Below are positions 2,565 through 16,634 of a stretch of DNA of 16,634 nucleotides, one piece after another. The notes beneath the pieces were generated by a model, which saw nothing but the letters and a program-made list of their open reading frames with translations, had not been told where the DNA came from and did not search any database. The DNA lies in NCBI GenBank assembly GCA_946480705.1, contig CAMLLF010000013.1, forward strand, positions 1 to 16,634, written 5' to 3'. Position 1 is the first letter of the stretch, and each line of letters starts with the position of its first letter. This DNA is from an uncultured Lysobacteraceae bacterium. GTDB lineage: Bacteria; Pseudomonadota; Gammaproteobacteria; Xanthomonadales; Rhodanobacteraceae. Made by a program: the position numbers and the translations under genes.

Positions 2565-3179
2565 TCAACGCCAGCGGCGATCGACCGTGAAGATGGCCTC
2601 GCAGCCGCCGTCGACCCAGATGCCGGCGCGGTTCCAGCCCCAGGTGCGGCCTTCGACGCAGGCCGTGCCGGAAATCTGCCGCGCGATGCGCACGTCGCTG
2701 CCGCGGCCCGTGTCGACCTGACAGAGGTTGTAGTGGTAGTTCTGGCTGCCGCAGCGCACCGAGATGCGCTGGTCCCAGTCGTTGCCGGGACGCCAGTCGC
2801 CGTGGCGATCGCCGCGGCCGTCGTCGTAACGGTCGCCGCGCCCGTCGTCGTAGCGATCGTCGCGACCGCCGTCATGACGGCCGCCGCCGCGCCGTTCGAC
2901 GCGGAAAATGCCGGCACAGCCCTGGTCGACCCAGACGCCGGCACGGTTGTAGCCCCAGGTGCGGCCTTCGATGCATTCGCTGTTGGAGACCTGATCGACG
3001 AGATACACGCGGCCGCCGCGACCGGTATCGACCTGGCAGAGGTTGTAGCTGAAGCTGCGGCTCTCGCACTGGAACTCGATGTCGCGGTCCCAGTCGCCGC
3101 GCTGCGCCGATGCGCCGGTCGCCGCAAGCGCGAGTCCGATCGCGGCCGTGCAGGCGGCCGAACGTACGTATCCTTTCAT
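2565..3179 (-). CDS. Secreted protein with two tandem DUF3011 domains
   Basis: 204 residues. ATG at 3179 is preceded by GGAGG at 7-base spacing and starts a clear signal peptide (1-25, ending ASA-Q). Upstream in-frame ATGs would bury this signal and have no such site. Two DUF3011 units lie at about 33-93 and 137-198. They share NLCQVDTGRG, a Cys-(V/I)-EGRTWG stretch, NRAG(I/V)WVD and a final Cys before A-x-IF. Cysteines pair in register: 38, 48, 69, 88 in the first unit and 143, 153, 174, 193 in the second. The linker 97-130 is rich in Asp, Arg and Gly with repeated octapeptides and is probably disordered. DUF3011 has no established function; the eight ordered cysteines suggest a disulfide-stabilised envelope or extracellular protein. 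It converges on the phosphodiesterase gene and lies downstream of the GFA gene on the same strand, 181 bases away. Confidence 0.85.
   Translation of the reverse strand: MKGYVRSAACTAAIGLALAATGASAQRGDWDRDIEFQCESRSFSYNLCQVDTGRGGRVYLVDQVSNSECIEGRTWGYNRAGVWVDQGCAGIFRVERRGGGRHDGGRDDRYDDGRGDRYDDGRGDRHGDWRPGNDWDQRISVRCGSQNYHYNLCQVDTGRGSDVRIARQISGTACVEGRTWGWNRAGIWVDGGCEAIFTVDRRWR
2808..2879 (-). repeat. 24-bp tandem repeat encoding RYDDGRGD-type octapeptides
   Basis: Two 24-base units (2808-2831 and 2832-2855) encode the same octapeptide, RYDDGRGD, with three silent differences. A third, more diverged unit (2856-2879) encodes RHDGGRDD. They form the linker between the two DUF3011 domains. The silent differences show the copies are not freshly duplicated. 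Confidence 0.75.
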
Positions 3180-3797: not shown

Positions 3798-3844
3798 CCC
3801 TCTCCCCCGACCTCTGGTCGGGCGAGAGGGCTGGGGTGAAGGGG
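3798..3844 (+). repeat. Palindromic intergenic repeat, copy A
   Basis: The arms 3798-3812 and 3816-3830 pair at 14 of 15 positions around a TCT loop. A CTGGGGTGAAGGGG tail follows at 3831-3844. The tail and the CCCTCTCC word recur in inverse orientation in copy B. It resembles REP-like dispersed repeats of Xanthomonas- and Pseudomonas-type genomes (general knowledge). It lies 36 bases upstream of the GFA start, so it would sit in that gene's leader or promoter region. Confidence 0.75.
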
Positions 3845-3934
3845 AGAAACGTCCGTGCAGCGTACTGACGGTCTTCGTATCGCGGGTAGACGTGACTGCG
3901 GCGCGACAACCGAACACCCGAGCGCGTCGCTTTT

Positions 3935-3979
3935 CCCCCTTACCCAACCCTCTCCCCCCAGGCACGCTTGGGGGAGAGG
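3935..3979 (-). repeat. Palindromic intergenic repeat, copy B (inverse orientation)
   Basis: Read on the minus strand, this copy has a hairpin (3969-3979 with 3949-3960, one bulged C) followed by a GTTGGGTAAGGGGG tail. That matches the layout of copy A in the opposite direction. It ends 13 bases from the stop of the small minus-strand gene that terminates at 3993, so it could also act as that gene's 3' hairpin. The 90 bases between the two copies hold no recognisable gene. Confidence 0.7.
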
Positions 3980-7892: not shown

Positions 7893-10043
7893 TTGCCGGC
7901 TTCACGTTCGCGACGACCCCGTGCCGCCTGCGCGGGGTTGTCGCTTCTGGGACTCGTCGCCGGCGTCGCCGGCGCCGGCGACTCCGTGCTCGACGCATGC
8001 CGCGACGCCGTGCGCCGCGATGCCGCGCACGCGCTCGTGCTTTGCGGCGAGGCCGAGCAGACCGCGCTCGCCGCGCGGGATTCGCGCATCGCCGGGCTGG
8101 CCGCGATCGAACACGCCGGCGCCGCGATCGCGCTGGCCCGCTACGAGGTCGCCGCGGCCGATCTCGCGCGCGCCGATCCGCTGCTGCGCGAGACGCAGTG
8201 GCGCGACCGGCACCGGCTCGAACGCCAGCGCGGCACGCTCGCGTTCCGTCGCGAGCGTCTCGCCGAAGCCGCGCTGCACTATGGCCGTTCGCTCGAGATC
8301 GCGCGCAGCCACGACGACGTCGCCGCGCAGGCGCAGGGCTGGAACGACGTCGGCATCGTCTATCGCCGCGTCGGCGACTACGCGCAGGCGCTCGAAGCGT
8401 TCACGACGAGCCTCGCGCTGCGCGAGCGGCTCGGCGAGACCGACCGCGCCGCGGCCGTGCTCAACAACCTCGGCAATCTGCAGCAGGATCTCGGCGACTA
8501 CGCCGCCGCGCAGACCTGGCTCGAACGCGCGCTCGCGGCCTACCGCGCACAGGACGCGCCGCGTCAGGTCGCGCATGTACTCGAAAGCCTCGGCATCAAC
8601 GACCGCCATCTCGGCCGCGACGCCGGCGCGCGCGATCGTTTGCGACAGGCCTGGGACGCGTTCACGCAGCACGACGCACCGCGCGACCGGCTGCGCGTCG
8701 CCACGCATCTCGCTCGGCTCGAGGCGCGCCTCGGCGACGAGGCCACCGCGCAACGCTGGATCGACGAAGCAACGACGCTTGCTGCGACCCTGCAACAGTC
8801 GCCGTCGCTCGCCCTGCTGCTTGCGATCGCGCAGGCCGGCGACGCGGAAACCCCGCGCCGCACGCTGCGCGAGCGCCTGCATGCGAAGGCCGGCGATCCG
8901 CTGAGCGACCGCGTCGACGCCTGGGAATTCCTCGCCGCGGCGAGCGAGCGCGACGGCGACGCCGCGCAGGCGCTCGATGATCTGAAAGCGCTGCAGACGG
9001 CGCGTGCCGAACTCGCGCAGACCGCGCAGAACGAGCGCGTCGCGCAATGGCAGGTGCGCCTCGACGTCGCCGACCGGCTGCGCGAGATCGAGGCACTGCG
9101 CGAACAGAACCGCGTGCAGTCCGAGCGCCTGGAGAACGAACGGCTGCGGCGTTATCTGACGCTCGCGATTTCGCTGGCCGGGCTGGCATTGATCGCGGCC
9201 ATGCTGCTGTCGCGGCTGCAGCGTCAGCGCGCGCAGGCCGCCGTGCAGCGGCTCGCGCTCGAACATCAGAGCGCGCACTACCGCAGCGCCGCCGATGCGC
9301 TGCGCGCCGATCGCCGACGCCTGCAGGCCCTCGTCGACCGCAGCGCCGAGGCGCTGCTGCTCGTCGACGCGCGCGGCAACGTGCTCGCGGCGAACCGCGC
9401 CGCGGGATCGCTGCTCGGCCGCGGCAGCGACGCGCTGATCGCCGCACCGCTCGCGGCGCTGCTCGGTCCCGACGCCGAGCGCCTCGGCGCGACCATGGCC
9501 GCGAGCGAGAACGCCGACGAGGAACGCGAGGAACATGGCGAGATCGCGCTGACCGCGCCCGGCGGCGCGGCGCTGCGCGCGGCGGTCGGCCTGCTCGACG
9601 ACGCCGACGCGGAAGAACCGGTGGTCTGGCTGAAGCTCCGGCCCGAGACGGCGGCCGCGGCCGGCGCGGAAACGACGGTCGCCCCCGCCGAAGGCGAAGC
9701 ATCCGACGCGCTGCGGCGCGCACTCGTCGAACTGATGCTGGCGGCACTCGATGCCTGGGAACGCAGCATGCGGCTCTCGCGCGTGGACTTCGCGCAGAAG
9801 AGCGGCATCTGGCGCGTGCACATCGACGACGGGCGTCTGCGCATGCGTTCGATGGAGCGCTACCTGAGCCTCGCGCGCGTGCCGCGGCATCCGCGCTGGC
9901 GCGAGGTGCTGCGCAGCGCCTATTTCGTGCTGGCCGAGTGCCCGCTGACGCCGGTGCAGCGGCGCGTGCTCGAGGAACGCGTCGCCGCCGTGCGCGCCCA
10001 GCTCAGCGAGAAGGCACTCGACGCGGCTGCGGCGGAAGGCTAG
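7893..10043 (+). CDS. TPR - transmembrane - PAS protein with unassigned C-terminal domain
   Basis: 716 residues from TTG 7893, chosen for its strong ribosome binding site; ATG 7875 would add six residues. The signal sequence is about 1-28 (GLSLLGLVAGVAGAG). Residues 60-330 contain helical TPR units, clearest at WNDVGIVYRRVGDYAQALEA and VLNNLGNLQQDLGDYAAAQ. A long coiled-coil (about 365-420) leads to one membrane helix at about 422-441 (LTLAISLAGLALIAAMLL), then a second coiled-coil. Residues about 473-560 look like a PAS domain (LVDRSAEALLLVDARGNVLAANRAA). After an acidic/alanine-rich linker, residues 611-686 form a compact domain with WERSMRLSRVDFAQKSGIWRV, DDGRLRMRSMERYL and WREVLRSAYFVL. 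I cannot name it; it may be a helical DNA- or partner-binding module. There is no kinase, GGDEF, EAL or receiver domain. It is likely an inner-membrane sensor with periplasmic TPRs and a cytoplasmic PAS. The layout suggests cotranscription with the amidohydrolase gene. Confidence 0.85.
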   Translation: MPASRSRRPRAACAGLSLLGLVAGVAGAGDSVLDACRDAVRRDAAHALVLCGEAEQTALAARDSRIAGLAAIEHAGAAIALARYEVAAADLARADPLLRETQWRDRHRLERQRGTLAFRRERLAEAALHYGRSLEIARSHDDVAAQAQGWNDVGIVYRRVGDYAQALEAFTTSLALRERLGETDRAAAVLNNLGNLQQDLGDYAAAQTWLERALAAYRAQDAPRQVAHVLESLGINDRHLGRDAGARDRLRQAWDAFTQHDAPRDRLRVATHLARLEARLGDEATAQRWIDEATTLAATLQQSPSLALLLAIAQAGDAETPRRTLRERLHAKAGDPLSDRVDAWEFLAAASERDGDAAQALDDLKALQTARAELAQTAQNERVAQWQVRLDVADRLREIEALREQNRVQSERLENERLRRYLTLAISLAGLALIAAMLLSRLQRQRAQAAVQRLALEHQSAHYRSAADALRADRRRLQALVDRSAEALLLVDARGNVLAANRAAGSLLGRGSDALIAAPLAALLGPDAERLGATMAASENADEEREEHGEIALTAPGGAALRAAVGLLDDADAEEPVVWLKLRPETAAAAGAETTVAPAEGEASDALRRALVELMLAALDAWERSMRLSRVDFAQKSGIWRVHIDDGRLRMRSMERYLSLARVPRHPRWREVLRSAYFVLAECPLTPVQRRVLEERVAAVRAQLSEKALDAAAAEG

Positions 10044-10440
10044 CCGTCGGCGCGCAGAGCACGCAGATGCCCCAGACGCCGTGGGCCATCAGATAGGCGT
10101 CGTGATGGTTGGCCGCGACGAAGGCCGGCGGCCCCTGCACGATCGCGACGATGTCGCCGACGTCGCCGCTCGCGATGGAGCCCGAACGCAGGTCTTCCTC
10201 GCCGCGGCAGAGCTGCTGGGTGAATCCGGTGACCTTGCGATAGTCGTCGTCGGGCTCGCCGCACGTGCCCTGGCAGCTCGGTGGATTCTCGCGGACCGCG
10301 GCGACGAGTTCGGCCCCGAACCGAAAACTGCCTATCGTCATCGGCTGGCCGTCGGCGCACCACTGCGACGGCACGGTCTCGTGGGCCCCGACGACCGCGG
10401 CCGACGCGATCAGGGCGACAGCAATCAGGATGCGATGCAT
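10003..10440 (-). CDS. Small secreted cysteine-containing protein, function unknown
   Basis: 145 residues. ATG 10440 has GAGGAG at 7 bases and starts a signal peptide (MHRILIAVALIASAAVVGA, about 1-19). The mature part contains an early Cys in QWCADGQP, CQGTCGEPDDDYRK, QLCRGEE and, near the end, GVWGICVLC. The six cysteines could form disulfides or hold a metal. The histidine pair in ANHHDAY is also notable. I do not recognise the family. The last 13 codons overlap the end of the TPR-PAS gene on the other strand by 41 bases; the proline/arginine-rich tail (APTASLPPQPRRVPSR) is encoded there and at its edge, and may be a late extension. It is divergent from another small secreted protein gene across 247 bases. 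Confidence 0.75.
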   Translation of the reverse strand: MHRILIAVALIASAAVVGAHETVPSQWCADGQPMTIGSFRFGAELVAAVRENPPSCQGTCGEPDDDYRKVTGFTQQLCRGEEDLRSGSIASGDVGDIVAIVQGPPAFVAANHHDAYLMAHGVWGICVLCAPTASLPPQPRRVPSR

Positions 10441-10687
10441 GCACCGACTCCTCGGCGGGGGTGCGGACATCCTCCGCGCCGCAACGGCCCACCCGCAAGC
10501 GGCACGGCGGGAAAAAACCGGGTCGAAACCGCGACGGCCGCGCCTGCCGCGGGATGCCCGCATCGCGCGGCGCGGCGCCAATGCGGCCCGGATTCGTCCC
10601 GCGGATTCGCTGGCCGCATGCGGTGCGGCGGCCTAGCGTCGCTGCAACCGGCCATCCCGGCCGGCGCGAACCGCAGACGAGGTCACC

Positions 10688-11134
10688 ATGTTCCGCACGT
10701 TCCTACCGGTGCTTGCCCTGGGCGCCGCAACGCTTTCCGGCTCCGCCTTCGCCTATACGAACACGGTCCCGATCGGACAGATCACGGCATCGTCGCTGCA
10801 ATATGGCGGCGCCGTCCTGCATGCGGGCGGCTGGGCCGGCCATCACTACCTCGCACCGAGCCTGGCCGAGTGCGAGCAGATGCTGCAGAGCGGCGTCGCC
10901 GATCACGGCGTTCCGCCCGGCCCCGGCGACTGCCCTCACGCGATGGAACAGGTGCAGCACTGCAGCCGCCGCTCGATGTTCGACTTCGCCGGACCGTCCG
11001 ACCCCGACACCGACGGCGTCGTCACGACGACGATCAGCGTGCCGGCGCGCTACCTGCGCGATGTCGGACGGCTGCGCCACGAGTTCCGCATCGATGAATT
11101 CGATGCGTTGCTGCAGGAGTACAGCGGGAAATAG
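10688..11134 (+). CDS. Small secreted protein, function unknown
   Basis: 148 residues. ATG 10688 follows GAGG at about 5 bases. The signal peptide is 1-22 (LPVLALGAATLSGSAFA-Y). The mature protein has four cysteines, in LAECEQML, GDCPHAM and HCSRR plus spacing that could give disulfides, and a histidine-containing GHHYLAP stretch. The C-terminal part (ARYLRDVGRLRHEFRIDEFDALLQEYSGK) looks like an amphipathic helix. I do not recognise the family. Codon use matches the neighbours. It ends just before a palindromic repeat and is followed by the convergent site-2 protease gene. Confidence 0.7.
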   Translation: MFRTFLPVLALGAATLSGSAFAYTNTVPIGQITASSLQYGGAVLHAGGWAGHHYLAPSLAECEQMLQSGVADHGVPPGPGDCPHAMEQVQHCSRRSMFDFAGPSDPDTDGVVTTTISVPARYLRDVGRLRHEFRIDEFDALLQEYSGK

Positions 11135-11147
11135 GCGTCAGGCCGGG

Positions 11148-11217
11148 AATGGGGAGTCGGGAATCGGTGAAGCAAGGCGCCCGCGACGCGGCACCGTCTG
11201 ACGCATCACCGGTTCCC
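11148..11217. repeat. GGGAATCG-type palindromic intergenic repeat, copy 1
   Basis: The left arm 11159-11170 (GGGAATCGGTGA) pairs with 11206-11217 (TCACCGGTTCCC) at 11 of 12 positions, the exception being a possible G-U pair in RNA. The words AATGGGGA, GGGAATCG and GAAGCAA occur in the same order as in the second copy near 14824. It fills the gap between two convergent genes and could act as a bidirectional 3' hairpin. Such repeats are widespread in Xanthomonas-type genomes (general knowledge). Confidence 0.7.
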
Positions 11218-11222
11218 CGGCC

Positions 11223-14027
11223 TCAAAAGCCAAACTCGCTCCGCGACGCACGCCGTTGCGCGACATGATCCCGCAGGCGTTCCGTATAGCTGCGCCACGT
11301 GCGGTTGCCCTGCAGGTCGAGATAGCGGCGCTCGGGCGCCGCCTGCGGGCACCAGAACAGATTCGCGACGCCGAGCCCGCCGGGTGACAGGTCGGTAGGC
11401 GCCTCCAGATGGACGCCGCCGATGGCGATGCAGGCGTCGAAGGCGGCCGCATCGATACCCGGCGACACGACGGCGGCGCGCTCGCGCGCGAACCTCGCTG
11501 CCTCGGCGTCGAGTCGCGACACCGGCTGCCACTGCGCGAGCGGCAGCAGCATCAGCATCGCAATGCCGTCGTGCCGCCGGTAGACCTCGGCCAGGTCGTC
11601 CGGCAGCGGCGCACCGAAGCGCGTCGCGACGGCGGCGAGGTCGGCGTCGGCCGCCGGTTCGCCCCAGCGGGCCCGCGAGGACAGCAGCCACTGCGTCAGG
11701 CTGGGTTTTCCGACGTCCTCGATCAGCCGCGCTGCCGACCAGTCCGCGACCGCCTGCCGCTCGCGTTCGCGCGCCGCGTCCATGCGCGCGGCCGAGTCGG
11801 CGATCTGCGCCGACTGCACCCAGCGCGAGCGCAGCCACGGGACGACTCCGGACCATGCAAAGCCGCCGCCTTCGATGTCCAGCGAATACAGCCGCAGGCC
11901 GGCCCGCAGCGGCGGTTCGCCGGCGTCGTAGAGCGTGACGGACTCGGAACTTTGGCCACCGACGAGCACGAGGAAGGATCCGAGGTCGGCCGGCGTCAGG
12001 GCGATCTCGCGTGGCGCCGCGTCGTCCGCCGCGGGCGGCTCGTGCACGAACAACGGGATCCGGCCTTCGTACGCGTAGCTCGCCGGATCGATATCACTCG
12101 CATCGCGCACCCGGCGCAGGTCGGCGAGCGGCGCGAGTTCGAGCGTCTTCGCGCCGTCCGCAACGCGATAGAACGCGAGCAGATCGGCCGGCAGCGTCGC
12201 GCCGAGCCGCGACTGCGCCGCGGCGATCGCCGCCTCGTCGGCCGGCGCGGCGGACACGGCGATCGGAGCAGCGGCCGTCCCGCCGTTCAACGCATCGAGC
12301 GCGGCCTCGTTCGCCGCAATGCCGCGCAGCAGATCGGCCACGCCGAGCTTCGCCGCTTCGCCTTCGAACTGCGCGTCGCGCTGTGCCTGCCGTTCCAGCA
12401 TCGCCGCGGCGTCGGCGGCCGAACCGAAGATTTCCCACGCGCCGATCGCGACGACCGCCGCCAGCAGCGGCCCCGCGAGCAGCACCGCATACGTGCCGCC
12501 GACGACCACGCGCTGCCCGACGCGCATCGGCCGCACGTCGATGCTGCGCAGCGCTTCGGCACCGAGCGCGAGCCGCGCCGGGGCCTGCGCGGTAGCGCCG
12601 ACGACGCGGTCGTAGACCTCGAATACGCGGCGCAGACGCAGCGCCGCCGGCTGCGACGCGGCCATCTGCGGATCGCCGCGCAGCGCTTGCAGCACGCCGC
12701 CAAGCTGCCAGCGGCTCTTCACGAGCGGCAGCTGCAGCAGCGCGATGAACGCGAGCAGCTTGAAGCCGAGCCAGAACGCGAGCACGGCACCGACGACGCA
12801 GGCGACCGCGATGAACACGGCGCTCAGGCGCGCCGAGCCGACCGGCAGCAGTTCCTGCACGACGTGCGCGCCGTCGAGCGGCGGCACCGGCAGCACGTTG
12901 AGGTAGTTGATCAGCAGGAACACCAGGGCCGCCTGGAACACGAGCCCGCCGGCGTCGGCCAGCCCCAGGAACCAGACCGCGAGCAGCGCCCAGCCGATGA
13001 GGATGCCGGGCAGCGGTCCCATGAGGCTCATCCAGGCGCGGCGCGCGGCGTCGGGCCTGGCTTCGTGGCCGATCGTCACGCCGCCGACCAGCGGCAGCGC
13101 GAGCATCTGCACGTTGCGGTAGCCCGACAGCCGCATCGCGAGGTAGTGCCCGAATTCGTGGATCGCGACGACGACGAACAGCACGAGCGCGAACTGCAGG
13201 CCCCAGAACCAGCCGCCGAGCGCGAGAAACAGCGCGACGCTGAACGCGAACAGCCCGGCCTGCACGCGCCGCGGCACCGGACGCTGGGTCTGCCGCTGCA
13301 TCACCTGCGACAGCCACGCGAGCCGCGCCGGAGGCACCGGCTCCGTCGATGCCGGCGGCCTGGGCTGGCGCGCCATCGCACGATAGATCTGCCACGCGAA
13401 CGCGAGCGTCGGACGCAGCAGGCCGCGGCTGTCCCGATAGACCTTGCGGCGCTGCACGAGCGAAGCCACGCGCTGCGCGTGCAGTGCGTCGGCCAGCCAG
13501 GCTAGCGCCGCGTCATCCGCGCCGGACGGATCGACCGTGCCGTGGCGCGCGCACGCGGCGCGATGCGCCTGCCATTGCGCGGCGAGATCGGCGCCGCCGA
13601 TGGTCTGCCCGATGATCCGCTCGTCGCTCAGGACTTCGGCAAAGGCATCGAACGACTCGCTGATGCAGTGGCGCCCGTCGGCGAGCCGGCACATGAACAC
13701 GGCGGTGAGCCGGTTCGGGACGGCCGGCGACGACGGCGCGAACAGCCAGAGCACATCGCCGTGTTCGCGCTGGCGCCAGCTGGCGACGGGCTGTGCGAGC
13801 ACGCTGCCGTCGGGGCTGTCGAGCAGATACCAGGCCGGGCCTTCGAAACCGAGCGGATCGAGTTCGGCAGCGGCCTGCGCACACAGGTCGGCCATCGCCT
13901 CGGGGACGCGCGGCGCCGCGATGCGCCGCATGCGCAGTTCGGGAAACGTCATCGACAGCAGCGCGCGCACGCGCTGGAGCTGCAGCAGCAGGAAGACGGC
14001 GAAGACGAGCGCGATCAGATCGAACAT
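11223..14027 (-). CDS. Site-2 protease (M50) membrane protein fused to two SMI1/KNR4 (SUKH)-like domains
   Basis: 934 residues from ATG 14027, which begins a hydrophobic segment (MFDLIALVFAVFLLL). The ribosome binding site is weak, so the start is the best guess. Residues about 30-240 are a soluble domain I cannot name. Membrane helices resume near 265 and hold the zinc motif HEFGH (290-294) and, about 85 residues on, the third-ligand motif N377-xx-P-xxx-LDG with Asp385. These are the hallmarks of M50 intramembrane metalloproteases, which cut membrane-embedded or signal peptides. A further membrane helix lies at about 512-531. Two copies of an SMI1/KNR4-like pattern follow: RLGATLPADLLAFYRVADG (607-625) and RFGAPLPDDLAEVYRRHDG (803-821), each followed by a hydrophobic 'LxPL' strand. 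SUKH domains are known as immunity proteins in polymorphic toxin systems and as protein-interaction modules. The gene is divergent from the RebB-like gene with 177 bases between. Substrate unknown; the SUKH calls are from pattern only. Confidence 0.8.
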   Translation of the reverse strand: MFDLIALVFAVFLLLQLQRVRALLSMTFPELRMRRIAAPRVPEAMADLCAQAAAELDPLGFEGPAWYLLDSPDGSVLAQPVASWRQREHGDVLWLFAPSSPAVPNRLTAVFMCRLADGRHCISESFDAFAEVLSDERIIGQTIGGADLAAQWQAHRAACARHGTVDPSGADDAALAWLADALHAQRVASLVQRRKVYRDSRGLLRPTLAFAWQIYRAMARQPRPPASTEPVPPARLAWLSQVMQRQTQRPVPRRVQAGLFAFSVALFLALGGWFWGLQFALVLFVVVAIHEFGHYLAMRLSGYRNVQMLALPLVGGVTIGHEARPDAARRAWMSLMGPLPGILIGWALLAVWFLGLADAGGLVFQAALVFLLINYLNVLPVPPLDGAHVVQELLPVGSARLSAVFIAVACVVGAVLAFWLGFKLLAFIALLQLPLVKSRWQLGGVLQALRGDPQMAASQPAALRLRRVFEVYDRVVGATAQAPARLALGAEALRSIDVRPMRVGQRVVVGGTYAVLLAGPLLAAVVAIGAWEIFGSAADAAAMLERQAQRDAQFEGEAAKLGVADLLRGIAANEAALDALNGGTAAAPIAVSAAPADEAAIAAAQSRLGATLPADLLAFYRVADGAKTLELAPLADLRRVRDASDIDPASYAYEGRIPLFVHEPPAADDAAPREIALTPADLGSFLVLVGGQSSESVTLYDAGEPPLRAGLRLYSLDIEGGGFAWSGVVPWLRSRWVQSAQIADSAARMDAARERERQAVADWSAARLIEDVGKPSLTQWLLSSRARWGEPAADADLAAVATRFGAPLPDDLAEVYRRHDGIAMLMLLPLAQWQPVSRLDAEAARFARERAAVVSPGIDAAAFDACIAIGGVHLEAPTDLSPGGLGVANLFWCPQAAPERRYLDLQGNRTWRSYTERLRDHVAQRRASRSEFGF

Positions 14028-14204
14028 GGCGGGCGGCGCGGCGGGGATCGCCGATTGTCGCCGGACCGGACAGTCAGCGCACGCCGCGCGACGCCCGGCC
14101 GCGGCGATAGGGGCCGGCGCCCGACTGCGCTTCGCAGCAGACGCGCCGCAACGCGTTTGCGGCAGAATCCACTTCGCTGCACATCCTAGCCGAACGGAGC
14201 CGTC

Positions 14205-14825
14205 ATGCCCGAGACCGTCAATCCCCAGATCACCGACGCGGCCGTGACCGCGTTCCCGACTCCCGTGAATTCGCAGATCACCGATGCGGTGACGCAGGCC
14301 AACGTCAAGGTCGTCGCCGAAGCGCCGGCGATCGCGATGGGTTCGATCTACCAGAGCCTCGCGCATTCGACCGGGATCCTGTTCGAGAACGCGGTTTCGC
14401 AGCAACAGCAGCAGAACGCGCTGGCGCAGGCCGCAGCGAACCAGGGCGTCATCCAGATCTATTCCGTCGACACGCAGTCCGACGCGGCCGGCACGGCACC
14501 GCTGATGCGCGCCGATGCGGCATCGCCGAACGCCCCGCACGAAGCGGCGCGCAAGGCCATGGCCGCCGTCAACAGCCAGATCACCGACGCGGTGAAGTTC
14601 TCCAACGAACAGACGCTGAAACACAGCGGCGACGTCGCCTATGGCGTGCGCGCCGCCTGCGACGCGCTGGCCTCATCGATCGAACGCATCAACCACGCGA
14701 ACCAGCAGAACCTGCTGCAGACCGTGAAACTCGCCGCCCGCGCGGCCTGCCTCGCGGCGATGGTGCGCGAGCCCGAGAAGGCCGGCGCGTATCGCGACGT
14801 GCTGGAGGCGATCGACGCGTTGTAA
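14205..14825 (+). CDS. RebB-family (R-body / killing trait) protein with duplicated Reb unit
   Basis: 206 residues. ATG 14205 has CGGAG at 5 bases. Residues 21-90 match the RebB family: VNSQITDAVTQANVKV, APAIAMGSIYQSLAHS, then a QQQQQ run and GVIQIYSVDT. Reb proteins assemble into R bodies, coiled protein ribbons that unroll and burst membranes (Caedibacter killing of Paramecium; reb genes of Azorhizobium). Known RebA/RebB are roughly 100-115 residues; this protein is about twice that. Residues 122-187 look like a second, degenerate unit opening with VNSQITDAVKFSNEQT but lacking the IYSVDT end. A short VNPQITDAAV at 5-14 is a third copy of the opening motif. There is no signal peptide or membrane helix, so it is cytoplasmic. 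No other reb gene is seen in the window, although such genes are often clustered. It is divergent from the S2P-SUKH gene. The family call is firm; formation of R bodies by this protein is not shown. Confidence 0.85.
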   Translation: MPETVNPQITDAAVTAFPTPVNSQITDAVTQANVKVVAEAPAIAMGSIYQSLAHSTGILFENAVSQQQQQNALAQAAANQGVIQIYSVDTQSDAAGTAPLMRADAASPNAPHEAARKAMAAVNSQITDAVKFSNEQTLKHSGDVAYGVRAACDALASSIERINHANQQNLLQTVKLAARAACLAAMVREPEKAGAYRDVLEAIDAL

Positions 14826-14919
14826 TGGGGACGGGAACGGGGAATCGTAGAGCGCGAAGCAAATCCATTCCCACCCGATTCGAAGCGGCAGCTCCTGCTG
14901 CTGCGATTCCCGATTCCCG
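14824..14919. repeat. GGGAATCG-type palindromic intergenic repeat, copy 2
   Basis: The left arm 14832-14847 and right arm 14904-14919 (CGATTCCCGATTCCCG) pair at 14 of 16 positions. It shares the ordered words AATGGGGA, GGGAATCG and GAAGCAA with the copy at 11148. It fills nearly the whole gap between the convergent RebB-like and ppc genes, so it could serve as a 3' hairpin for both. Confidence 0.7.
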
Positions 14920-14924
14920 GCACC

Positions 14925-16634
14925 TCATCCCGTGTTCTGCACTCCCGCCGCGATCCCGTTGACCGTGGCGGCGAGTGCGAGGAAGAGTTCGCCGTCCGGA
15001 CGGTCCTGCGCGCGCCAGCGTGCGAGCAGGTCGACCTGCAGCAGGCTGATCGGATCGACGTAAGGGTTGCGCAGGCGGATCGACTGGCGCAGGCGGCGGT
15101 CGCCAGCGAGCAGATGGCCGGCCTGCTTGAGTTCGAGCACGGCGGCCAGGGTCAGGCCGAATTCGGCGACGATCGGCGTGTGGAATGCTGCGTGCAGCGG
15201 GCCGGCGAGCTGCGAATAACGCGCAAAAATATCCATGTCGCTTTTTGCGAGCATCATCTCGGCGTCGTCGATCAAGGTCGCGAAGAACGGCCAGTCGCGC
15301 GTCATCTCGCGCATCGCGTCGATGCCGTAGCGGCCGATCGCGTCGGCCAGCGCGGTGCCGATGCCGTACCAGCCGGTCAGACCGGCGCGGTTCTGCGACC
15401 ACGCGAATACCCAGGGAATCGCGCGCAGGCTGGCGACGCCGCCGGCGCCGCCGCGCCGCGGCGGACGCGAGCCCATGCGCAGGCGCTCGATGACGTCGAT
15501 CGGCGTGGCGGCGCGGAAGTAGTCGGGAAAGCGTTCGGCCTCGTGCACGAGCGCGCGATAGTGGCCGCGCGACACGTCGGCCATGTGCCCGACCATCTCG
15601 CGCCATTGCGCTTCGCGCGGCTCGGCCGGACGCGGGCGCAGGCTCGCGCGCAGCACCGCGCCGGTGGTCTGTTCGAGGTTGCGCAGCGCGAGCGCGCGGA
15701 TGCCGTATTTGCGATGGATGACTTCGCCCTGCTCGGTCAGGCGCAGATAGCCGTCGACGGAGCCGCGCGGCGCGGCGATCACGGCGCGCTCGGTCTTGCC
15801 GCCGCCGCGGCTGATCGAGCCGCCGCGGCCATGGAAGAATGCGATGCGCACGCCGCTGCGCTGTGCCAGTTCGGTCAGCAGCACCTGCGTGCGCTGCAGC
15901 GCCCAGCGCGAGGCGAACAGGCCACCGTCCTTCGCGCTGTCGGAATAGCCGAGCATGACCATCTGGCGATTGCCGCGCGCGGCGAGATGCTCGCGATACA
16001 GCGGGTCGGCGACCAGGTGCTCGTGCAGGTCCTGCGCGGCGCGCAGGTCGGCGATGGTTTCGAACAACGGCGCGACGTCGAGCGGAACGCGTCCCTCGCC
16101 GTCGGCGCAGCCGGCGACGCGCGCCAGCGCGAGCACCGCGAGCACGTCGGCTGCGCTGCGGCTCATGCTGATGATGTACGGGCCGATCGCGTTGTCGCCG
16201 TAGCGCTGCCGCGCCTGCGCGACAGTGCGGAACACGGCCAGCGTGCCGGCCGCGGCGTCCGTTTCGGGTTCCGGCACGGTCGCCGACGCGATCGTCGCGG
16301 CCAGGCGTTCGCGCCGCTGCGCCGCATCGCGCTGCGGCCACTGCGCGTCGGCGAACAGCGCGGCGAGCGCGAGGTCGTGCGCGCCGGATTCCTGGCGCAG
16401 ATCGAGCGTCGCGAGATGGAAGCCGAACGTGTCGACGCGCTGCAGCAGCTGGCGCAGCGCGAGCCAGCCCGCGTGCTCGCCGCGGTGCGCGCGCAGGCTC
16501 GTCGCGATCAAGGCGAGGTCGGCGCGGAATTCCGCGGCGTCGGCATAGCTTTCCTCGCGCTCGTTCGCGGTCGCCGCAAGCCGCGCGCTGATCAGGCTCA
16601 GCAAATGCCGATACGGCATGTCGGCGTAGCGCGC
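14925..16634 (-). CDS. ppc: Phosphoenolpyruvate carboxylase, partial (C-terminal part)
   Basis: 569 residues are visible and the frame remains open at the right edge, so the N-terminal third is missing (E. coli Ppc has 883 residues). The enzyme adds bicarbonate to phosphoenolpyruvate to give oxaloacetate, refilling the TCA cycle in the cytosol. Landmarks in order: GYSDSAKDGG (about 15920-15955), the glycine-rich active-site loop FHGRGGSISRGGG (about 15800-15840), a GEVIHRKYG motif, FAWSQNR, LRNPYVDPI and the conserved C-terminal NTG. The first catalytic histidine region of the family lies outside the window. No insertion or frameshift is seen. Bacterial Ppc is usually allosterically controlled by acetyl-CoA and aspartate; that cannot be judged here. 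It converges on the RebB-like gene with a palindromic repeat between them. Confidence 0.97.
   Translation of the reverse strand, partial: ARYADMPYRHLLSLISARLAATANEREESYADAAEFRADLALIATSLRAHRGEHAGWLALRQLLQRVDTFGFHLATLDLRQESGAHDLALAALFADAQWPQRDAAQRRERLAATIASATVPEPETDAAAGTLAVFRTVAQARQRYGDNAIGPYIISMSRSAADVLAVLALARVAGCADGEGRVPLDVAPLFETIADLRAAQDLHEHLVADPLYREHLAARGNRQMVMLGYSDSAKDGGLFASRWALQRTQVLLTELAQRSGVRIAFFHGRGGSISRGGGKTERAVIAAPRGSVDGYLRLTEQGEVIHRKYGIRALALRNLEQTTGAVLRASLRPRPAEPREAQWREMVGHMADVSRGHYRALVHEAERFPDYFRAATPIDVIERLRMGSRPPRRGGAGGVASLRAIPWVFAWSQNRAGLTGWYGIGTALADAIGRYGIDAMREMTRDWPFFATLIDDAEMMLAKSDMDIFARYSQLAGPLHAAFHTPIVAEFGLTLAAVLELKQAGHLLAGDRRLRQSIRLRNPYVDPISLLQVDLLARWRAQDRPDGELFLALAATVNGIAAGVQNTG

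Follow-up and report, generated by a model that had tools for sequence, protein, structure and literature searches.

Among described site-2 proteases (S2Ps), SpoIVFB carries a cytosolic CBS domain where the enzyme considered here has a tail of two SUKH domains. SUKH domains are commonly interpreted as immunity modules, and Knr4 provides an example of a SUKH-like domain in a non-immunity role. Proteins of the RebB family (PF11747) are components of R-bodies. In a 16,634-nucleotide stretch of contig CAMLLF010000013.1 (assembly GCA_946480705.1; hereafter the window) from an uncultured Lysobacteraceae bacterium, a gene for an M50-type membrane protease with a tandem SUKH tail lies divergent to a solitary RebB-family gene. 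The two probably represent functional but independent genes that are co-inherited in a conserved block of a Tahibacter-like lineage, one encoding an S2P gated by a ligand through a periplasmic SUKH sensor, the other a solitary Reb of two units.

Each half of the locus departs from what is described elsewhere. Compared with MjS2P (3b4r) and SpoIVFB (8vjl), the protease adds an N-terminal transmembrane segment (TM), a predicted cytosolic domain, a TM following the core and the tandem SUKH tail. Relatives within the SUKH superfamily include Knr4 (6qbm/5j1b), YobK (2prv), 3d5p and 2pag. Passages of PMC3482391 present SUKH as the broadest immunity superfamily, tandem polyimmunity forms included. 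Its immunity members are typically encoded as proteins of their own alongside toxins; here, by contrast, the SUKH domains are joined to a membrane protease, with a predicted periplasmic location. The Reb protein shares the QITD, KXXXE, NAV and QQQ motifs with RebB/R-body proteins, the described signature being QITD, KXXXD/E, NAV and QQQ (PMC13430693), but it is 206 residues long, has a second Reb-like unit and comes from a lone gene instead of a cluster. The Pseudomonas aeruginosa PA14 cluster has Reb-type polymer proteins in common with it and is described as holding several reb genes with RcgA, FecI2 and RapA (excerpts of PMC8322103). Surveys of reb genes are available (PMC3583457, PMC8322103 and PMC13430693, each in excerpt), of which the last, in the excerpted part, retained synteny patterns with at least three reb genes. 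The word “protease” does not occur in the main text of PMC8322103, nor do “protease”, “peptidase” and “SMI1” in that of PMC13430693. Searches of the open-licence literature gave no paper describing an M50-SUKH protein, nothing for Tahibacter with R-body and, among the matches listed for Reb with immunity and protease, nothing relevant.

The protease was read from the ATG at 14027; a 1133-residue frame with a GTG start is a mechanical extension only and was set aside. In the 934-residue product, Pfam finds Peptidase_M50 (PF02163; E 4e-12, 46.4 bits against a cut-off of 27.2) and, in two stretches, SMI1_KNR4 (PF09346; E 1.5e-9, 39 bits against 25.4). A reading made earlier from the sequence alone had proposed a Reb-family gene beside a protease with two SUKH-like domains detectable by profile search, and both proposals hold. 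Scanned alone, the SUKH-1 part narrowly exceeds the SMI1_KNR4 cut-off (25.8 bits) and the SUKH-2 part stays below it (18.8 bits), the matches spanning just the first 31–38 of 125 profile positions. The local alignment of the two parts scores 95, against 35.7 ± 6.1 for shuffled sequences, none of 1000 being as high, and on this comparison SUKH-2 is homologous to SUKH-1. H290, E291 and H294 of the HExxH zinc motif are invariant in 53 aligned rows, as are N377, P380 and L384-D385-G386 of the third-ligand motif NxxPxPxLDG, with P382 present in at least 90%; the residues of both motifs are invariant also in a 22-sequence alignment. An AlphaFold2 (AF2) model (pLDDT 91.9) matches SpoIVFB and MjS2P over the core and Knr4 and YobK over SUKH-1, such that a fold search with the predicted model recovers both the S2P membrane fold and the SUKH fold, in a match list that barely probes the N-terminal domain or SUKH-2. 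Motifs and model together identify the protein as an inner-membrane S2P with an intact zinc site. The N-terminal domain is confidently folded in the model, and residues 1–230 match no Pfam family up to E 1. The homologue in genome G291 (L078:9200-11458) is 752 residues long and stops ahead of the second SUKH domain; further homologues of 752 residues are P0027 and P0028.

The orientation of the protease was predicted from flanking charges, with the borders of the membrane segments set by hand from hydropathy and the model. Lysine and arginine average 2.6 per 15 flanking residues after TM1, 3.5 before TM2 and 0.5 after TM2, and at the last helix (TM8) 2.94 before and 0.62 after; the pattern of the TM5–TM6 loop is ambiguous. 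C866 and C893 are both cysteine in 51 of 53 aligned rows, the remaining two having a gap. The N-terminal domain is thus predicted to be cytosolic, and the SUKH tail is predicted to be periplasmic because of the charge pattern and the conserved cysteine pair. The Reb protein reaches a 19-residue hydropathy mean of 1.19 at most (up to 1.78 in some homologues), which suggests a protein that lacks a clear membrane segment and is probably cytosolic. The predicted placement of tail and Reb on opposite sides of the membrane argues against the idea that the SUKH tail is an immunity module for Reb.

The Reb gene product matches PF11747 with 103 bits (E 8.9e-30; cut-off 24) and carries QITD at residues 24–27, K35-E39, NAV at 62–64 and QQQQQ at 66–70. 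The protein has an extra N-terminal QITD, and about 100 residues on a second unit follows with its own QITD. Scanned alone, unit 2 reaches 15.2 bits, below the cut-off. Its alignment to unit 1 scores 56 against 28.8 ± 4.9 for shuffled sequences (1 of 1000 as high), and it is predicted to form a 65-residue helix of the same length as that of unit 1, in a model of low confidence (mean pLDDT 59.8). Among 48 aligned homologues of 187–245 residues, the motifs are conserved, invariant residues occur in both halves, and 38 retain a QI-type motif in unit 2. By these comparisons the protein is one full Reb unit followed by one degenerate unit. No solved relative was found by sequence up to E 1, and a fold search starting from the low-confidence model gave no match at E 0.001. 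The gene is the sole Reb match among window open reading frames (ORFs) of at least 60 residues. Four relatives (G014, G384, G328 and G291) each have a single PF11747 match and a fifth (G505) a single Reb match; hence an R-body cluster of at least two reb genes is found neither in the window nor in these five genomes.

The two genes are divergent across 177 bp between their starts, as the sequence-only reading had described, and that reading took the interval for a shared promoter region. A 16-mer pattern, TGCSGCAGAATCCACT, lies immediately upstream of Reb in the window, G505, G014 and G384, and among 148 fetched loci it was found solely in copies of those four regions. Its 11-base core, GCAGAATCCAC, is upstream of Reb also in G291, and G328 has just a looser form. 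Because G291 retains the core without having the protease next to Reb, the element looks like Reb's own and not a shared switch; a shared bidirectional promoter was rejected on the same observation. A simple sigma-70 scan of 10900–15100 gave no promoters, and the same interval has one terminator-like site against 1.6 expected.

Table 1. Coordinates of the protease, the Reb gene and the region between them in the window
Feature	Position	Strand	Basis
Site-2 protease (M50) with tandem C-terminal SUKH, 934 aa	11223..14027	-	PF02163, PF09346, AF2 model, fold matches
SUKH domain 2 (homologue of SUKH-1), within residues 771-934, C866/C893 pair	11226..11717	-	Pfam 18.8 bits (below cut-off), homology to SUKH-1
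SUKH domain 1, residues 561-750	11778..12347	-	
Last membrane helix, residues ~508-530, leading into the SUKH tail	12438..12506	-	Hydropathy, lysine/arginine flanking charge
S2P membrane core, residues 253-451, HEFGH 290-294, NVLPVPPLDG 377-386	12675..13271	-	
N-terminal alpha/beta domain, predicted cytosolic, residues ~24-230	13338..13958	-	Confident fold, flanking positive charges, no Pfam match
Divergent intergenic region, 177 bp	14028..14204	.	ORF coordinates, alignment with relatives
Reb-proximal promoter-like element TGCGGCAGAATCCACT	14158..14173	+	Pattern conserved upstream of Reb in relatives
RebB-family gene, 206 aa, with second Reb-like unit	14205..14825	+	PF11747, signature motifs
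Reb unit 1, QITD/KVVAE/NAV/QQQQQ, helix 23-87	14265..14474	+	Motifs, Pfam, model
Reb-like unit 2, QITD at residue 125, helix 124-188	14568..14768	+	Unit alignment, low-confidence model

The protease most likely works by ligand-gated intramembrane proteolysis, in which binding of a periplasmic protein to the SUKH tail would switch cleavage of a membrane substrate. Reb, under its own promoter-like element, would probably make or seed an R-body-like polymer alone. The protease probably stood beside ppc already, as it does in G503, with Reb coming between them later or being lost in G503, and the neighbourhood would have been inherited afterwards. If a conserved M50-SUKH family has a periplasmic tandem SUKH tail, SUKH would be a sensor for intramembrane proteolysis. 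The solitary two-unit Reb, with no other reb gene found, would offer a minimal system for questions of Reb assembly.

The conservation of the neighbourhood bears on whether the two genes form a functional pair, in which the protease, as the sequence-only reading proposed, would restrain, sense or process Reb or the membrane damage it causes, the SUKH tail being the part that recognises Reb. We consider such a pair unlikely. Gene positions in relatives were set by tblastn; our home-made gene caller missed the protease of L077 and the Reb of L075. The order PLC, DUF3011, f2, PD40-amidohydrolase, protease, Reb, ppc forms a conserved block, and gene order is common to the window, L075–L078 and L145. 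Protease and Reb are directly divergent in the window, G505, G014 and G384, but they are separated by one gene (ORF731) in G291 and by three (MBOAT and two f31) in G328. Across the window and five relatives, adjacency is kept in six of six for f2-PD40, in five of six for PD40-protease (in G328 the two lie across 1.5 kb with no called gene), in four of six for protease-Reb, and in four of five for Reb-ppc, the sixth contig ending there. Conservation of the protease-Reb pair thus does not exceed that of its neighbours, f2-PD40 and PD40-protease being at least as conserved. Two closer relatives, moreover, have the protease with no Reb match: in G503 (protease 46% identical) ppc adjoins the protease, and in G504 (61% identical) the protease is followed by MBOAT-f31, on a contig that ends near there. 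MBOAT with one or two copies of f31, a gene of about 400 residues, lies divergent from the protease in G328 (L077:7617-11489) and G504 (L146:5634-8347).

Co-occurrence in larger samples points the same way at the level of the order. In 398 genomes (protease at E 1e-10, best two candidates scored per genome; Reb by PF11747), the protease was found in 23, seven of the matches being weak (E above 1e-30), Reb in 50 (49 over the cut-off) and both in 5, against 2.9 expected (Fisher p 0.15); in one of the five, G022, the genes are on different contigs. Thus 45 of 50 Reb genomes lack a protease match and 18 of 23 protease genomes a Reb match. In 233 genomes of the family (protease at E 1e-30, best three candidates per genome; Reb at E 1e-5), the counts are 11, 26 and 5, with a Fisher p of 0.003. 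Orthologues standing apart in most relatives, which the sequence-only reading named as the test of its functional link, are therefore seen across the order and not within the close lineage; linkage holds in the immediate lineage, and specific functional pairing does not follow from it. Partner co-occurrence across lineages, as in toxin-immunity or toxin-antitoxin pairs, was not seen, co-occurrence being confined to one lineage. In a class-wide sample, the protease was found in 2 of 321 genomes at E 1e-25, G014 among them. Among the matches listed in the protease contig scan, 2 of 21 loci (L001 and L002) cover nearly the entire protease, and their genomes gave no Reb match in a scan where controls gave no match either. 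Some protease and Reb hits fall on contigs of equal length (for example 849915, 15755 and 196637), a coincidence that suggested linkage and was then borne out at the locus level for just part of them.

A set of observations weighs against independence and in favour of a pair. The close Reb type, 52–63% identical to the window Reb over most of its length, occurs in five family genomes and always with the protease in the same locus (5 of 5 against 11 of 233; p 8e-8), although these genomes are relatives and the co-occurrence p-values overstate their independence. Protease and Reb stayed together while TPR-PAS and the 148-residue gene hyp148 changed sides: these two are on the PD40 side of the pair in the window (7938-11134) and between Reb and ppc in G014 (L076), a change that is a local transposition. 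Identity to the window is 51–62% for the protease and 50–60% for Reb, against 79–89% for PD40 (ppc, measured against that of G014, is at 83–87%), and the fast divergence of the two could reflect a shared arms race. The speed alone does not single out the pair, however, because TPR-PAS (58–67%) and hyp148 (34–41%) diverge fast as well. SpoIVFB, the closest fold, was solved as a complex with pro-sigmaK, and the periplasmic placement of the SUKH tail is drawn solely from charge bias and cysteines. Against a pair stand that placement, with Reb predicted on the cytosolic side, the promoter-like element that Reb retains in G291, and the separations and absences described above. A “killer” gene beside an “immunity-like” domain can be plain synteny.

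Independence of the two genes could also mean that the protease acts by itself in envelope defence or sensing: its periplasmic SUKH tail, as a generic toxin binder, would capture incoming effectors that the protease then signals or destroys, and Reb would be irrelevant. This we regard as decidedly improbable. Among Pfam-scanned neighbours, which comprise some of those beside the protease and a part of those in relatives, no toxin gene and no polymorphic toxin was recognised. At other loci the scan identified neighbours such as pyruvate-dehydrogenase-type and glycosyltransferase genes, and SUKH-like domains serve outside immunity too, as in Knr4. In L082:8553-13764 and L083:5511-10723, a distant protease homologue lies divergent to E1/E2 genes of the pyruvate-dehydrogenase type, and in L084, L085 and L088 such a homologue overlaps by 4 bases with the end of a long gene, which in L084 is a multi-domain glycosyltransferase by Pfam.

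More of a long shot is a one-gene Reb polymer, two units replacing separate subunits, that is checked by a dedicated transmembrane protease whose periplasmic SUKH tail detects ribbons or damage and triggers intramembrane cleavage; if true, this would equip an R-body system with a membrane-level safety device of its own. That Reb is a decayed remnant of an R-body cluster without present function is hardly credible: the presence of just one Reb match per genome in five relatives, the degenerate second unit and the lack of a Reb match in G503 and G504 would fit, but the 48 homologues with conserved motifs and invariant residues in both halves and the conserved upstream element do not.

To compare Reb elsewhere, 20 Reb loci were fetched from the order sample, selected because their frames are long or solitary. 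In 15 of them a long Reb aligns with the family profile over its full length, and in the other five the match is confined to the first half of the profile. None of the 15 long-Reb genomes is among the 23 protease-bearing ones, and their neighbours differ, an M28 peptidase/SpoU methylase/AcrB block being present at six loci and an AIM24-family gene at four (one member per gene family was scanned with Pfam, the others being assigned by similarity). In the Reb tree, the window and L075–L078 fall in one group (37 of 82 rows; support 96/98), with G505 left out.

Two related palindromic repeats, said in the sequence-only reading to bracket the pair, proved weak. Four GGGAATCGG/CCGATTCCC comparisons between 11135-11222 and 14826-14924 score 23–27, no better than the best shuffles (maxima of 300 shuffles, 24–28), and a strict pattern of this repeat type was found in 1 of 147 loci. 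In three relatives, a gene for an extracytoplasmic function (ECF) sigma factor (PF07638 in L076) overlaps a Ser/Thr kinase gene beside ppc (L076:18244-20000, L077:654-3973 and L078:3-2377). Elsewhere in the window, 1065-2525 encodes a protein that has a ricin-type lectin domain at its C-terminus and matches PI-PLC weakly, below the cut-off, the region of the DUF3011 gene (2574-3096) contains a 208-nt direct repeat that is 71% identical, and an inverted repeat lies between called genes at 3799-3979, its 37-nt arms being 73% complementary and separated by 107 nt.

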